Shown piece after piece: positions 8,717 through 63,026 of a DNA stretch of 64,000 bases. The notes beneath the pieces were generated by a model that worked only from the letters and a program-made list of their open reading frames with translations, was not told the DNA's origin and made no database searches. This DNA comes from Orenia marismortui DSM 5156. GTDB lineage: Bacteria; Bacillota; Halanaerobiia; Halobacteroidales; Halobacteroidaceae. The stretch's first letter is position 1; every line of letters begins with the position of its first letter. The stretch is taken from the NCBI RefSeq assembly GCF_000379025.1, contig NZ_KB900617.1, forward strand, positions 586,316 through 650,315. The letters run 5' to 3'. A program made the translations under genes and the position numbers.

Positions 8717-8723
8717 AAAAAAA

Positions 8724-8929
8724 TTGTTCCGCAATGCCGTACTAGACTTTTTATTTTGCTCTCTCTCTACAAAGTGGGTGCCCTCCCATTTGATTTGTAC
8801 TTCCACTCTTAGGAGGCTTGTACGCCACAAACGAAGCTAGGCTCCCTTTTAATATGGTGTTGGGCAAAATATAAATCCGATCACGAACATCGCAGAACAA
8901 CTATATATTTTTCTCTCTTCCTTAACTAT
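8724..8929 (-). ncRNA. ssrS: 6S RNA
   Basis: About 200 nucleotides on the minus strand show the layout of bacterial 6S RNA, which binds the sigma-A RNA polymerase holoenzyme. The closing stem pairs TTGTTC near 8900 with GAACAA near 8728. The conserved TTTTGCCCAACACC and GGGAGCCTAG blocks, then GTACAAGCCTCC, and GGGCACCCACTTTG on the 3' side fit the central bubble and its flanks in Firmicutes 6S RNAs. A strong promoter lies just upstream and a terminator downstream. The ends are estimates. Confidence 0.85.
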
Positions 8930-16629: not shown

Positions 16630-18786
16630 TTAAGCAGGATTAGCACGTTGTACATTAAGTACTCCTTCAATAGCTTCTAATTTATTGATAATATCCTTCA
16701 TATGTTCTAAGCTACTAATTTCTAAAGAAAGGTTAATCGTAGCTGATATATCCTTTTTAATCCGAGCATTGATAGATGTTATATTCACCTTAGCTTCAGA
16801 AATAACAGTAGTAACATCATTTAATAATGATCTTTTATTTAATGCTTCAATTTTTAATTCTACTTCATAAGAAGTTTGTTGATCTACATACCATTCTACA
16901 TCAATAATACGTTCTTGCTCAGTTTCTTCTAAGTTGTGTAGGTTAGGACAATCTTCTCTATGAACTGAAACACCTCGCCCACGAGTAATATAGCCTATGA
17001 TCTTATCACCAGGTACAGGATTACAACATTTGGAAATTCTAACTAATAGTCCATCAATTCCTTTGACTTTGATCCCTTTATTCTGTGGATTCCTTCTAAT
17101 ATTTCGCTTTTTCTTAAGCTTATTTAATTCATATTTAGGACAATCTTTCTTCTCCTCTGGTATTAACTTTCTAACTATTTGACTGACCGAAAATTTATTA
17201 TAAGAAATGGCAGCATAAAGGCCTTCAATATTAGCAACACCTAGTCCTTTGGCTATTTCTTCTAATTTTTTATTCTTTTCAGATTCTTTTAAATTTATAT
17301 GTTCTTTTTTTAATCTCGATTCTAACATTTCTTTACCTTTGACACTAGCCTCTTCTTTACGTTGCTCTTTGAACCAATGCTTAATCTTACTTTTAGCTCG
17401 TGAAGTCTTAACAAAGTTAAGCCAATCTCGACTAGGACCACTGTTGGTAGAAGTTAAAATTTCAACAATATCACCATTCTTAAGTCTATATTCTAAAGAA
17501 ACAATCTTCCCATTAACTTTAGCTCCCACACAAGTATGACCAATATCAGTATGAATATTATAAGCAAAGTCAACTGGGCTAGCTCCTTGAGGTAAAGAAA
17601 TTACATCTCCTTTAGGTGTAAAAACAAAAACTTCATCTTCAAAAAGATCAATTTTTAAGTTTTCCATAAACTCTTTAGCATCACTTAGATCTTTTTGCCA
17701 TTCTAACAATTGTCTTAACCAAGAAATTTTTCTTTCAAAGTCTTCATCCTTACGATTTCCTTCTTTATATCGCCAGTGAGCAGCAATACCATATTCAGCT
17801 GTACGATGCATCTCCCATGTTCTAATCTGTATCTCTAAGGGTTCACCTTTAGAACCAATTACTGTTGTATGCAAGGATTGATACATGTTTGATTTAGGCA
17901 TTGCTACATAATCCTTAATTCTACCTGGCATAGGACTCCACAACTCATGAATTATACCCAAAACCTGATAACATTCCTTGACCGAACTTACAATGACACG
18001 TAAGGCTGTTAAATCATAAATCTCATTAAACTCTTTTCCACCTTTTATCATCTTTTGATAGATACTATATAAGTGCTTTGGCCTACCATAAATATCAGCT
18101 TCAATATCTACTTCAGTTAGTTTAGTATTCAGTCTTTTAATTGCTTCTTCTATATATGCTTCTCTTTCAGCTCGATTTTTTGCTATCTTCTTAGCTACTT
18201 CATAATATCTATCAGGTTCTAAGTATCTAAAGCTTAGATCCTCCAATTCCCATTTTAATGTAGATATTCCAAGTCTATGAGCCAAAGGAGCATAAATTTC
18301 AAGAGTCTCTGTTGCTTTTCTAATCTGTTTTTCTCTAGGTAAGTATTGTAAAGTTCTCATATTATGCAATCTATCAGCTAATTTAATTAAAATAACTCTA
18401 ATATCCTTAGCCATAGCTAAAAACATTTTGCGTAAACTTTCTGCTTGGTGTTCCTCTCGCGATTTGAAATCTATTTTACTTAATTTAGTAACACCATTAA
18501 CGAGCAATTCAATCTCTGGTCCAAACTTTTCTCTTAGCTCTTCTGTAGTCACTTCAGTATCCTCTACCACATCATGTAATAAAGCAGCAGAGATTGAAAT
18601 AATATCCAACTCTAGTTCAGCCATTATTTGCGCTACTTGTACTGGATGACTAACAAAAGGTTCTCCAGAAACTCTATACTGCCCTTCATGGGATTCTTTT
18701 GCCAAATAATAGGCTTCTTTTACTAAGCCTATGTTAGCTTCTTCAGTATATGATTTTATTGTGGCTAATAGTTTGTCTAAAGACAT
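16630..18786 (-). CDS. relA: Bifunctional (p)ppGpp synthetase/hydrolase, RelA/SpoT (Rsh)
   Basis: A 718-residue long RSH protein governing the stringent response. The N-terminal HD hydrolase is apparently active (His47, His71-Asp72 in LLHDVVEDT). The synthetase domain follows (YDLTALRVIV, YQSLHTTVIG). TGS is at about 395-455 (VFTPKGDVISLPQGASPVDFAYNIH), then the conserved-cysteine/zinc-finger segment (CCNPVPGD, REDCPN), and an ACT domain at the end. Both catalytic halves keep their motifs, so it is called bifunctional. It lies between apt and dtd. Confidence 0.96.
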   Translation of the reverse strand: MSLDKLLATIKSYTEEANIGLVKEAYYLAKESHEGQYRVSGEPFVSHPVQVAQIMAELELDIISISAALLHDVVEDTEVTTEELREKFGPEIELLVNGVTKLSKIDFKSREEHQAESLRKMFLAMAKDIRVILIKLADRLHNMRTLQYLPREKQIRKATETLEIYAPLAHRLGISTLKWELEDLSFRYLEPDRYYEVAKKIAKNRAEREAYIEEAIKRLNTKLTEVDIEADIYGRPKHLYSIYQKMIKGGKEFNEIYDLTALRVIVSSVKECYQVLGIIHELWSPMPGRIKDYVAMPKSNMYQSLHTTVIGSKGEPLEIQIRTWEMHRTAEYGIAAHWRYKEGNRKDEDFERKISWLRQLLEWQKDLSDAKEFMENLKIDLFEDEVFVFTPKGDVISLPQGASPVDFAYNIHTDIGHTCVGAKVNGKIVSLEYRLKNGDIVEILTSTNSGPSRDWLNFVKTSRAKSKIKHWFKEQRKEEASVKGKEMLESRLKKEHINLKESEKNKKLEEIAKGLGVANIEGLYAAISYNKFSVSQIVRKLIPEEKKDCPKYELNKLKKKRNIRRNPQNKGIKVKGIDGLLVRISKCCNPVPGDKIIGYITRGRGVSVHREDCPNLHNLEETEQERIIDVEWYVDQQTSYEVELKIEALNKRSLLNDVTTVISEAKVNITSINARIKKDISATINLSLEISSLEHMKDIINKLEAIEGVLNVQRANPA

Positions 18787-18877: not shown

Positions 18878-19390
18878 TTAATCTATAATTAAAGAAAAGA
18901 CCTCATAGTCAGTTAATTTTTCTCTTCCATCTAAAAATCCTAACTCCATTAAAAAGGCAATCTCAACAATTTCTCCACCAAGCTCTTCAACTAAATCAGC
19001 TGTGGCTTTTACAGTTCCTCCTGTTGCTAATAAATCATCAACAATCAAAACTTTGTCTCCTTTTTCAATAGCATCCTTATGTATTTCCAGTATGTTGCTT
19101 CCATACTCTAAATCATACTCAGTCTTTAAAATTTCTCCAGGAAGTTTACCCTCTTTTCTTACTGGTACAAAACCTTTATTTAATTTTAATGCTAGAGGAG
19201 CACCAATTAAAAAACCTCTTGCTTCTACTCCTAATACTAGATCAATATCTTTATCTTTATATCTTTCAGCAATTTGATCTATAGCTTCTTCATAAGCATT
19301 TGGGTCTTTTAATAAGGTTGTAATATCCTTAAAAGCAATGCCCTCCTTTGGAAAATCTGGAATAGTTCTAATCTTATCTGATAAATTCAA
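18878..19390 (-). CDS. apt: Adenine phosphoribosyltransferase
   Basis: A 170-residue purine-salvage enzyme making AMP from adenine and PRPP. The PRPP motif [13 protein letters not shown] and the N-terminal [12 protein letters not shown] signature are present. The start is TTG, preceded by GGGGAGA, and overlaps the 3' end of the recJ-recQ fusion by 17 bp. The order recJ-apt-relA is conserved in this lineage. Confidence 0.96.
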
Positions 19391-22300
19391 CTTTATTCTC
19401 CCCTTTCAACTCTATAAATCTTTTTGGATAAATTGGTTGGTTAATTAGATTTAATAGTTTTTGTGAATTTTCTTCAAGTGCAAACTTCTTAAATTCTACA
19501 AAAGCTTGCTTATCTTCAACACCTTCATTATATCTTATTGATGTTGTTAAGTCTAGTTTTACATCAGGTTTAGGACTTAATTTAATTATTCTACTACTTT
19601 CTTTTAAGCGAGTTAACAATTTCAACTCTTCCAAAATCCCTAATCCTGCTGATATAGTACTTGCTTGTACTTTTTTTCCAACTTTATTACCTACCTGATC
19701 AGCTAATTCTTGATTAGTCATAATAACTTCTCTATTATTATCTTTTAGCTTTGTTAAAATAATATACAATTGTGCTAAAACATCTCTATCAGGAGCCATG
19801 ATTTCTAAAATAAATTCATTTATCCTAGCATCCTGTTCACCATACAATAAATGAATATAAGACTCCCGACCATCACGCCCAGCTCTACCACTTTGTTGAT
19901 TAAATTCAGTGCGATTAAAATTCAAATGGTACAAAATAATATGTTTAATGTCAGGAATATCAATTCCTTCACCAAAAGCGCTTGTAGAAACAACCACTTT
20001 TATTTCTCCATTTCTAAACTTATCTTCAACTAGGCTTCTTTCTTGATTGGTCAATCCTGCATTATAAAAGACAATTTCTTGAGCCAAAAAAGGATTCCTA
20101 TCTCTAAGAGCTGATGCTATTTCGATACTTTTCTCTCGACTATTGACATAAACAATCGTCTTTTCTCCTTTTTTAACTACCTGATCTATATAATTCTCTT
20201 TATTGGAAGAGTTACGCTTATCTATTAAGTTTAAATTTTCTCTAATATGAGTATCGATTACAAGATTTTCAATGCTTAAACAATCTACAATTTCTTGGGT
20301 TACTTGATCATTTGCAGTAGCAGTTACCGCTAAGACTAAAGGATCTCCCAATTCAGATAATATTTGTGGTATTCTCTTATAGGTAGGTCTAAATTGATTT
20401 GAGGCTAAACCAATATGATGACTTTCATCAACTACAAAAAAGCCTATCTTATCTTTAATTTTGCTAAATCTATCTAAATTATATTCAATAAATTCAGGGG
20501 TAGTTAGTAAAACATCTACAGCAGCAGAATTAAGAGCTTCATTCAATTCTTCTCTTTCTTTAACAGTTAAAGCACCATTTCCTTTATACACTCTAATTCC
20601 TAACGGAGATAATTTCTCCTTTAAAGAATGGAATTGATCATTAACTAAAGCTCTAAGTGGATAAATAATTATTGTCATCTGATTATATTTTATAGCTTGA
20701 AAAGTAGCAAAACTTTGGAACACTGCAGATTTTCCTCGTCCAGTACCAAAAATAGCTAAGGTGTTCTGTTCTTTAAATAAACTATCAATCGCTTCTGCTT
20801 GTTTAGGTCTAAAACTATAATCCCCAATTAATGAATTTCTAATCTCATCTAAAACTTGATTGTCAGTTTTAGTTGCTAATTTGGAACGAATTAACTTAGT
20901 CTCATAGTCTGCTTTCTGATCTGAAGTAATCTTGGCTTTTTCGATAAACAGATTAACACCTAGACTCTGTTTATTATCTATTCCTCCTGTTACTTCTGAA
21001 ACTATAGCCTTATATTCAATTCCATTATCTAAATAAGGTGCTAAATATTTTGATAAATCAGCCTTTAAAAAACCAATCTGTTTCTGGTTTTTGCTTACTA
21101 CTTGTATCGCATTTTTATCATATTGATTATCAGGATCTCGTACTAAAAAAACTAAATCCCCTTTATTAACATAATCTTTGATTATATCCTGGCGGCCTTC
21201 AAAAGTAACGCCCACTACTTTAGTGTAAAAAGAATCATTCTCTGCAATACCTCGATAAAAATCATCTTCTAATATTTCTTTACTTTTAGCAAAAAGTTGG
21301 TCTACAAAAGATAATTCCGGGAATTTGATATCTTTGATTGTTAAGCTCACAGTCTCTGTTCCACCAAAATCATTAATATCCATAGTAAATGCTAAATCTA
21401 TCTCTTCATTTTGAACTAAAAGTTTCTTTCTTAATTCAGCCATATTCCAAGCAATAGATTCTACAGTTCTACCTCCACTATCAAAATAAATCTTAATATG
21501 ATCCTCTTCTTTACCAAATAGACTAAAGTTATTAATAGCTAAATCTTTTAAAGCAAATTTAGGTCTAGGATTGCCACAACCATATGGTTCTAGTTTAGAT
21601 AATTCTCTGACTAAACCTTTAGAAGCATCTTCTATATCAATAACTTGTTCCAATTTAATTCTATCTATTAAATCTTCCTCTGCTAAGACTTGATCAGCAT
21701 ATCCATTAATCATCTTACGAAACTTATTAATATTCTCAGCCTTTAAAGAACATCCTGCCGCTTCTTTATGTCCTCCAAAGCCTTCGAAGCATTCTTCACA
21801 ATATTTAAAAGCTTCATACAAATTAAAATTTCTAATACTCCTAGCTGAACCTAGTATTCTACCATCTTCAGCATAAGTCAGTAAAACAATTGGACGATAA
21901 TACTTCTCTTGAAGTTTAGAAGCAGCATTACCAATCACCCCTGGATGGCCTTCCTCTAAAGTAATTACTAATACCTTTTCTTCTTCTAAATCTATATTTT
22001 GAGCTATATACTTCTCAGCCTGAGCTAAGATTTGACTGGTTATATCCTGCCTTCCAACATTCATCTCACGCAATTGATCAGCTAAGTTATTAGCAGTTAC
22101 AATATCTTCTTCAGTAAGCATCTGTACCCCTAAATGAGCCTGCCCTAATCGTCCAGTAGCATTAATACAAGGAGCTAGATAATAGCCTATAGCCCCAGCA
22201 GTAATATCCTTGCTCTTATAACCTACTTTTCCTTTTAAGATTCCAATATTAAAATCTCCAGAACCAAGAAAGCTATTAATTCTTTTTAATCCATATTTAA

Positions 22301-23045
22301 CTATAATTCTATTCTCTCCAACGAGAGGAACTATATCAGCAACTGTTCCTACAGTTACTATACTCATATATTTAATTAATTGATCAAGGCTATCTAACTT
22401 ACCTAGTTTAAGTAACAAAGCATGTACTAATTTAAAAGCAACTCCTACCCCCGCTAACTTCTTAAAAGGATAAGAACAATCTTTTTGCTTAGGATTAAGT
22501 ATAGCTAATGCCTGGGGTAAGTTATCTGGGACTGTATGATGATCAGTAATAATCACATCAATCCCAAGTTCATTAGCTAAATTTACCTCCTCGATTCCTG
22601 AAATCCCACAATCAACAGTTATAATTAAATCTGTATCTTGCTGAGATAAATTACTAATTGCATCTTTATTCAACCCATATCCTTCTTTCAATCGATTAGG
22701 TATATAATAATCAATATTAGCATTTAAATCTTCTAAAACAGTTATTAATAAAGATGTACTGGTAATACCGTCTGCATCATAGTCACCATAAATAACAATC
22801 TTCTCTTGCTTATTAATTGCCTGCTCAATTCTAGAAGAAGCTTCTTCCATATCTTTTAGAAGAAAGGGATCATTTAAATCCTCTAGACTAAAATCTAAAA
22901 ACTCCTCTACTTCTTGAGGAGTTTTTAAACCTCTATTAGCTAAAATCTGAGCCATAATCGGGCTTATATTTAAATTATCAACTAATTCATCTATGGTTTC
23001 TTGATCAGCGCCTTGTATGTTCCATATTTTTTCCTGATCTAGCAT
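19374..23045 (-). CDS. recJ: RecJ exonuclease - HIRAN - RecQ-like helicase fusion protein
   Basis: A single 1223-residue frame. The RecJ DHH domain carries YGDYDADG at 86-93, VDCG at 144-147 and TDHH at 167-170. DHHA1 is at about 365-450 ([21 protein letters not shown]), and the RecJ OB domain at about 460-575. A HIRAN domain follows at about 605-690 ([26 protein letters not shown]). A superfamily 2 RecQ-like helicase covers about 735-1085 (Walker [14 protein letters not shown] box, [22 protein letters not shown]), then a winged-helix-like region. RecJ is normally 560-800 residues. RecJ and RecQ cooperate in bacteria as separate proteins in 5' end resection; here they are joined. There is no frame break at the joins. 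Confidence 0.93.
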
Positions 23046-51232: not shown

Positions 51233-51256
51233 AAGAAATTTTATATAAGAACAAAT

Positions 51257-51632
<376 letters not shown>

Positions 51633-62810: not shown

Positions 62811-63026
62811 AAAAAACCCCCTCCCTAATAGTATCTCTACTATCAGGGACGAGGTTACCCGCGGTTCCACCCTGTTTAATCCTATTTACTAGGATCCACT
62901 TTATTATCAGTTACTCCCAAGTGCCCTTCATTAGTTTTTATACTAGGCTTACACCATCCCTAGCTCGCTATAAAACTACTAACTAATTACTCTTCTTGTT
63001 CATCATAACTATATTTCTTGAATTTT
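62811..63026 (-). promoter_or_regulatory. Glycine T-box riboswitch of glyQS
   Basis: A tRNA-sensing leader on the minus strand. The specifier loop reads GAAGGGCAC with the Gly codon GGC at 62923-62925. The T-box sequence AGGGTGGAACCGCGG is at 62859-62873. The terminator (TCCCTGATAGTA with TACTATTAGGGA, then T6) ends at 62811. Uncharged tRNA-Gly should pair with both sites and favour the antiterminator, raising glyQS expression. Confidence 0.95.

Follow-up and report, generated by a model that had tools for sequence, protein, structure and literature searches.

A RecJ protein fused to a HIRAN domain and a RecQ-like helicase in Orenia marismortui, and its relation to the tails of other RecJ proteins

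Described systems and the fused gene

In textbook accounts RecQ helicases and the RecJ nuclease work together, each as a protein of its own. In the available excerpts of PMC4846377, RecJ of Deinococcus radiodurans alone does not process DNA with a 3' overhang, SSB (the single-stranded DNA-binding protein) and RecQ each enhance its action on this substrate, and the two together stimulate it strongly. RecJ and RecQ of Bacillus subtilis both appear in the SSB-tail interactome (PMC3000357, in excerpt). The available part of PMC4666394 describes bacterial HIRAN domains fused to phosphoesterases or nucleases, so the domain combination reported here may already be listed somewhere. We analysed a window of 64,000 nucleotides (the whole stretch, positions 586,316 to 650,315 of contig NZ_KB900617.1) from Orenia marismortui DSM 5156, in which one gene joins the cell's RecJ to a complete HIRAN domain and a RecQ-like helicase. 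We consider it likely that the product is a one-chain resection enzyme, and that the fusion is an old one whose motor has decayed in many lineages. No account of a RecJ-helicase fusion, or of the domain PF10141 as a helicase relic, was found in what was available of the open-licence PMC literature.

The fusion gene lies at 19374..23045 on the minus strand and encodes 1223 residues from an ATG start, with a GGGGGA run immediately 5' of the ATG. A sequence-only reading of this DNA had proposed a single uninterrupted frame here, without stating the strand, and the frame was confirmed. Six Pfam domains follow one another in the protein, each above its cut-off: DHH (PF01368, residues 82-212, 22410..22802, 105.8 bits), DHHA1 (PF02272, residues 356-449, 21699..21980, 69.8 bits), the OB domain RecJ_OB (PF17768, residues 468-572, 21330..21644, 91.6 bits), HIRAN (PF08797, residues 605-687, 20985..21233, 59.8 bits, cut-off 24.7), DEAD, which is the RecA1 lobe of the helicase (PF00270, residues 746-915, 20301..20810, 86.5 bits), and Helicase_C, the RecA2 lobe (PF00271, residues 949-1059, 19869..20201, 92.7 bits). 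All of these, like the motifs below, are on the minus strand. The nuclease core (residues 1-575, 21321..23045) is a RecJ by both tests applied: TIGR00644 matches residues 28-573 at 578 bits (cut-off 396.9), and DHH, DHHA1 and OB domains carry the catalytic motifs. Every motif quoted in the earlier reading, those of the helicase included, is present. The modelled core aligns with the solved RecJ 5f55 over 521 residues (Z 53.4).

The HIRAN assignment was upheld by profile search, and the region alone matches five HLTF HIRAN sequences of solved structures (phmmer, E 3e-9 to 4e-9) over a span that includes the RDPxNxYDKNAI stretch. The helicase has superfamily 2 (SF2) motifs 0 to VI, with motif I (Walker A, GTGRGKS) at residues 767-773 (20727..20747), motif II (DESHH) at residues 873-877 (20415..20429) and a further helicase motif at residues 1050-1060 (19866..19898). 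A winged-helix-like domain and a KLDLxxSIRYNE tail (residues ~1085-1212, 19410..19793) are common to the relic C-terminal domains discussed below, in which the RecA2 lobe and the sequence C-terminal to it are the portion that survives; the winged-helix label is a putative one, read off the helix-helix-helix-strand-strand order in the model. Pfam listed no RQC or HRDC match up to E 1, and the model shows the winged-helix-like region and a helical tail at that place.

An AlphaFold model of residues 576-1223, built with 37 sequences, reached a predicted local distance difference test score (pLDDT) of 87.2 and a predicted template modelling score (pTM) of 0.77. RecQ-family chains, with the RecQ fold of two motor lobes, top both structural match lists. 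The closest fold is WRN (8yle, Z 29.3, 368 residues aligned, root-mean-square deviation (rmsd) 5.3), and the D. radiodurans (DrRecQ, 4q48), BLM (7aud) and E. coli RecQ (1oyw) structures match at Z 29.0, 28.5 and 25.1. The RecQ-like helicase proposed earlier is borne out by the two Pfam domains and the fold search, and its likeness to RecQ stands as regards fold and SF2 motifs; it does not extend to the curated models, for the protein falls below both RecQ cut-offs (TIGR00614, 206.2 bits, cut-off 219.8; TIGR01389, 206.9 bits, cut-off 640.2), nor to the zinc-site cysteines. DESH, which the earlier reading took for an altered DEAH box, is present but is no anomaly. Motif II is DE[S/A/C]HH across the 41 rows of our comparison that were classed as intact from motifs I, II and VI, the window protein among them; because A, S and C all occur there, the idea that DESH points to altered chemistry was rejected. 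All 41 also keep motifs Ia, Ib and III, which lie outside that definition.

The fusion protein itself is real. The frame is kept at full length in two same-genus genomes with 75-77% identity (one of these proteins is identical to a protein of Orenia metallireducens, placed in Halanaerobiales in NCBI), and the ratio of non-synonymous to synonymous substitution rates (dN/dS) of the C-terminal half is 0.117 between the window and L007 and 0.075 between L007 and L008. A missed stop between the two halves was looked for in these frames, and none was found. We rejected a missed stop or an assembly join, and a sequencing artefact that unites two genes is so improbable as to be negligible: nothing was found in its favour, and against it stand the recurrence of this frame in further genomes and across the phylum and the low dN/dS of either half. 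No second RecJ matched in the genome at E <=0.001, which leaves the fusion as the only RecJ. The earlier reading had asked whether the genome has another free recQ or recJ; two separate RecQ-like helicases do exist in the genome, one of them above the RecQ cut-off.

Both halves are under purifying selection. For six intact pairs the dN/dS values, which are rough, were 0.068-0.130 in the C half and 0.053-0.179 in the core, with a dN ratio of 0.67-1.33. Five dead or relic pairs gave dN ratios of 1.32, 1.44, 2.44, 2.51 and 2.87, and dN/dS of 0.27-0.36 in 3 of 5 pairs with measurable dS. Judged from these sequences, the constraint on intact motors appears to match that on the nuclease; relics look still constrained, though mostly less so. 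The two halves have also diverged together: across the 41 intact rows, distances in the core correlate with those in the helicase (r 0.87, 0 of 2000 permutations).

Distribution and decay of the helicase

Of the 299 genomes sampled from the phylum, 26 gave a match to the intact HIRAN-helicase profile (E <=1e-80). Twenty-five of the 27 matches listed lie in frames of 1168-1272 residues, and the other two, from a single genome, are a free 657-residue frame (L078, the same gene as L020) and a motif-dead fusion of 1091 residues. In contigs of GTDB r220 we found 39 loci, including those of Orenia metallireducens, Candidatus Frackibacter, Thermincola, Peptococcaceae and Anaerospora; a few are labelled as other phyla, a binning that was taken as labelled. 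The idea that the architecture is peculiar to Halanaerobiales had to be given up, as both the phylum-wide matches and the GTDB loci reject such a restriction. RecQ (E <=1e-100) was found in 84 of the 299 genomes; among the 26 carriers of the HIRAN-helicase 10 have it, the window genome included. Replacement of RecQ by the fused motor is not supported, and since these carriers retain RecQ, the fused motor probably has a task of its own. At least 298 of the 299 genomes match in a search for AddAB at E <=0.001 and at least 167 pass the cut-off, and from these counts we draw nothing about AddAB loss.

Free helicases also occur. L020:6343-8289 is a free, motif-intact HIRAN-helicase of 648 residues in that contig; it stands near an actin-like gene, an SSB gene and a PAPS-reductase gene, the last of which we take to be DndC-like, and from these neighbours it looks mobile. 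The fused RecJ helicase of the same genome (L019) has dead motifs. Further free intact copies are L061/L062. HIRAN-only matches were seen at L072:5001-5279 and L074:1657-1917, where no frame reaches 100 bits or more to either half of the fusion. PADLOC lists PsyrT and DpdF helicases, using models without cut-offs. A defence role was rejected for the fusion, since its gene belongs to the recJ locus, but not for the free L020 helicase. When the helicases were placed in a tree with the two RecQs of the window genome as root, the free copies came out nested in the fused family, at forks that are unstarred (support 88 for L020 and 82 for L061/L062). In this tree L065, L109 and L117, with GKT in motif I, are intact rows, and L055 comes from a contig cut at its 5' end. 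This tree and the RecJ-core tree below are quick searches supported by Shimodaira-Hasegawa-like approximate likelihood ratio tests (SH-aLRT) only.

A series of states is found at the same locus: intact, full-length but motif-dead, RecA1 deleted, RecA2 and winged helix only, and no helicase at all. For 99 tree rows the flank on one side or the other measures 1200 bases or more; 96 of these rows have an apt, relA, secD or secF homologue there regardless of helicase state, so these RecJs occupy one conserved locus. The helicase is intact in the window's genus (three genomes) and in four of five genomes of a sister family in the order. L013, L014, L015 and L018 (1168-1201 residues) are near full length and are without Walker A, DExH and motif VI; in L017 (1101 residues) the part of RecA1 that bears motif II is gone; L019 and L021 no longer have HIRAN or motifs I and VI. 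L016, sister to the window's genus in the RecJ-core tree (SH-aLRT 100) and 61% identical to the window's RecJ core, has lost HIRAN and RecA1 and has kept RecA2, winged helix and tail. Other RecJs have 740-1032 residues with a tail, or 568-663 residues with little or none. Two of the latter length, L169:2122-4113 and L171:248-2239 (663 residues), carry about 100 residues that match winged helix and tail at 54 and 29 bits, and by this match they seem to keep only that part of the lost helicase. In L069:475-3993 and L073:3285-6788 a well-kept HIRAN start motif is paired with destroyed helicase motifs. Such proteins suggest that RecJ can make use of HIRAN even when the motor is dead; the two were fetched by the pattern FYTKVVGV, so the good HIRAN start partly reflects how they were found.

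The RecJ-core tree holds 126 rows chosen to span the length classes and not at random. Left out beforehand were duplicates, weak core matches, all cut frames except L056 and L059, and also L035, L036, L066 and L075-L102. In this set 69 of the 126 RecJs are motif-dead fusions or recognised relics (11 of class D, 54 of R, 2 of W and 2 of the 9 of C; L140 and L181, grouped in class C, score 92 and 84 bits with the RecA2-winged-helix profile). A starred clade of 13 in the window's order contains seven intact proteins, five dead ones and one relic. The intact state takes 10 changes on the tree, of which at least seven are forced by starred branches, and with midpoint rooting the presence of any tail requires 3 losses versus 12 gains. 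We read this as one old fusion followed by many inactivations, with some of the patchiness perhaps due to whole-gene transfer.

Homology of RecJ tails to the helicase

The portion from RecA2 to the tail was turned into a hidden Markov model (HMM) from 34 intact rows, duplicates included (L008 and L036 are identical). Of the 63 tails of 150-470 residues on helicase-less RecJs, 56 score at least 15 bits with it. As a control, 330 shuffled or reversed tails reached at most 8.6 bits. The 55 tails of that comparison had been selected for length 700-1035, a complete frame and a score of at least 7.5; the count over 63 tails is the fairer one. Among 11 RecJs with tails under 150 residues, two exceed 15 bits (L169 and L171, with tails of 101 and 106 residues) and nine fall below, eight of these nine having tails of at most 21 residues. 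Classes W and S are defined by profile score, and short-tail RecJs are therefore no independent control. The strict tail motif is present in only part of each class.

Independently of this HMM, profile A4, made from 54 tails of RecJs without an intact helicase (the 55-tail set minus L034), found RecA2 lobes of helicases in the PDB: vasa (1e-10), Hera (4e-10), RecQ 4tmu (7.8e-8) and WRN (6e-7). Alignment A3 of the fusion family (37 rows, including the two dead fusions L069 and L073) matched the 54 tails at 100%, and with hhalign it matched A6, 19 of the most divergent tails, at 99.7% over 223 columns. Reversed and permuted controls did not exceed 0.6%, nor did the HIRAN-RecA1 half when compared with the divergent tails; compared with the 54 tails, that half gave 14.8%. 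The match of dead intermediates and relics to the helicase is collinear, from RecA2 through the winged helix to the tail. At the level of single tails and E <=0.01, PF10141 was found in 20 of 54 and Helicase_C in 9 of 54. Profile A2 (13 tails) found no significant solved structure, its best E being 0.13.

Among solved structures, S. aureus RecJ 8y30 aligns piecewise with the full-length model as a whole chain (733 of 756 residues; chain 12-756, model 1-1194), its tail included. Alignments of the Deinococcus/Thermus RecJs 5f54, 5f55, 5f56, 6lrd, 2zxo and 2zxr end at residue 532-535, and no alignment was found that would make the Deinococcus/Thermus tail a counterpart. That tail binds the SSB tail according to the excerpts of PMC4846377, and a 2015 paper, in the part available, reports no defined homologue for it by HHpred (PMC4663267).

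On this profile evidence the PF10141 C-terminal domain of RecJ appears homologous to RecA2, winged helix and tail of the intact helicase. The short-RecJ control, the shorter Foldseek alignment mentioned below and the motif counts that depend on a definition weaken single lines of evidence; the main profile evidence is not weakened by them. We hold it reasonably probable that Bacillota RecJ was ancestrally a single-chain HIRAN-RecQ-like helicase-nuclease, that the ordinary tail, that of S. aureus included, is a dead half-helicase kept for another task, and that Orenia and scattered relatives run the original machine. The other task is perhaps contact with SSB or with DNA. A candidate origin for a RecJ domain of unknown descent is the main value of the finding. 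The intact, dead and relic forms at one locus also present a stepwise decay from motor to scaffold.

In the window itself, an apt homologue lies downstream of the fusion gene at 18878..19390 on the minus strand; with the TTG start of the list of open reading frames, this gene and the 3' end of the fusion gene overlap. Beyond it, at 16630..18786, also minus, is a relA/spoT homologue that served as a synteny marker. Both names are putative and were given from the sequence. Upstream are what we take, from their translations, to be a UbiB-type kinase gene and secDF. Rfam matches on the minus strand of the window are 6S RNA (8722-8901), RNase P RNA (51252-51610) and a T-box leader (62842-63012).

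Proposed mechanism, its rivals and known systems

The fusion is predicted, from its sequence, to be probably a working helicase-nuclease. By analogy with HLTF, the HIRAN domain would hold a 3' single-strand end. The motor, if it has the polarity of RecQ, would run 3'-5' on that strand and displace the 5'-ended strand. RecJ, whose polarity is known, would digest the displaced strand and leave a 3' tail for RecA. Ends or gaps would be the substrates of this unwinding and 5'-strand digestion. The helicase would have joined RecJ early in the Bacillota; later, in many lineages, the motor may have died and shrunk until the RecA2 lobe, the winged helix and the tail were left, which together form the C-terminal domain PF10141 of Pfam. 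The self-contained end-resection machine of the earlier reading is consistent with the polarities and with the constraint seen in either half, but as an activity it is a prediction. With both partners on one chain, the coupling of unwinding to 5' digestion becomes testable on a single enzyme.

A number of observations weigh against the favoured reading. We infer unwinding, coupling, 3'-end capture, the cellular role and the age of the fusion from the features above. The four-cysteine zinc site of RecQ was not found, there being a single Cys (residue 922) past residue 701, and the aromatic-rich loop of RecQ is not conserved in the 41 intact rows; the earlier reading was right that it is unusual. 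The Trp expected there is absent from the fusion protein, which has F and Y in the region, where many relatives have a single Tyr only. With zinc site and loop missing, unwinding may differ from that of RecQ. DEAD-box proteins follow close behind the RecQ family in the fold list, from rank 13 (Z 26.8), and RecQ is not displaced in genomes that carry the HIRAN-helicase. A model of residues 12-1211 (pLDDT 86.3, pTM 0.59) has an unreliable domain arrangement at that pTM and was not used as evidence. The dN/dS values are rough because dS is high (0.52-1.27 in intact pairs), and the lowest relic pair (dN ratio 1.32) is inside the intact range. On the side of the tails, seven of the 63 score below 15 bits with the HMM. 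When profile A6 was run against the PDB, vasa came up only at 0.0049, after a lectin (4.3e-5) that we took for a chance match, and 8y30 was not listed. The 8y30 alignment has an rmsd of 24.2 and holds only piecewise, and Foldseek's own alignment of that structure covers 562 columns, about the nuclease core. Some rows come from metagenome-assembled genomes. Lastly, on the midpoint-rooted tree the intact status is explained by 11 gains (without losses) versus 24 losses (without gains). Counting alone is no proof of an ancestral intact state, and the argument therefore rests on the homology of the relics.

This last count also speaks for a recent origin, in which a HIRAN-helicase joined RecJ or replaced its tail several times and the relics have another source. 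Intact status is cheaper as gains, and free intact HIRAN-helicases exist in L020 and L061/L062. We nevertheless find recent fusion quite improbable, since core and helicase distances agree, the free copies nest within the fused family (though at those unstarred forks), the dead forms and relics match the helicase in order, and the presence of any tail is cheaper as losses. It is unlikely, though less so, that the helicase part is an ATP- and DNA-binding allosteric or tethering platform for RecJ for which strong unwinding is not the task. The RecQ loop couples DNA binding to the ATPase, and its lack of conservation speaks for a platform. So do the many relatives without ATPase motifs that keep the domain; as motif-dead domains are kept at dN/dS below 1, a non-motor role seems to exist. 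The intact proteins point the other way, with motifs Ia, Ib and III kept in every row and low dN/dS in all six pairs, and because a scaffold has no need of the whole motif set, a pure scaffold is unlikely.

Fork remodelling in place of break resection is the rival we would rate highest, and still as rather unlikely. HIRAN and motor would regress a stalled fork at the nascent 3' end, and RecJ would trim the nascent 5' end. The HIRAN domain is closest by sequence, among solved structures, to that of HLTF, which serves fork remodelling according to the excerpts of PMC4666394; the motor, however, is RecQ-like and not SWI/SNF-like, and the locus holds nothing that separates remodelling from resection. 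We therefore retain the one-chain resection enzyme, in an old fusion with a motor often lost, as the likely explanation.

Among known systems, bacterial RecJ (TIGR00644; S. aureus 8y30, D. radiodurans 5f54/5f55) has the same core, OB domain and motifs, but ordinary RecJ has no HIRAN and no working helicase; the S. aureus tail can be aligned in pieces with RecA2, winged helix and tail of the fusion, whereas Deinococcus/Thermus tails do not align. The RecQ family (RecQ, WRN, BLM, RECQL5) shares fold and SF2 motifs with the fusion, which differs in scoring below both cut-offs, in having neither zinc-site cysteines nor a conserved RecQ loop, and in being joined to RecJ. WRN combines a RecQ helicase with an exonuclease in one chain and is in principle a similar nuclease-RecQ fusion, but its nuclease is an unrelated 3'-5' enzyme, it is not known to contain a HIRAN, and zinc site and RQC are present. 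HLTF resembles the fusion in its HIRAN sequence (3e-9), while HLTF itself has a SWI/SNF motor and a RING domain (PMC4666394, in excerpt). The RecFOR-pathway set of RecQ, RecJ and SSB shows the same proposed division of labour among separate proteins; in the fusion it would be carried out by one chain, with HIRAN placed between motor and nuclease.

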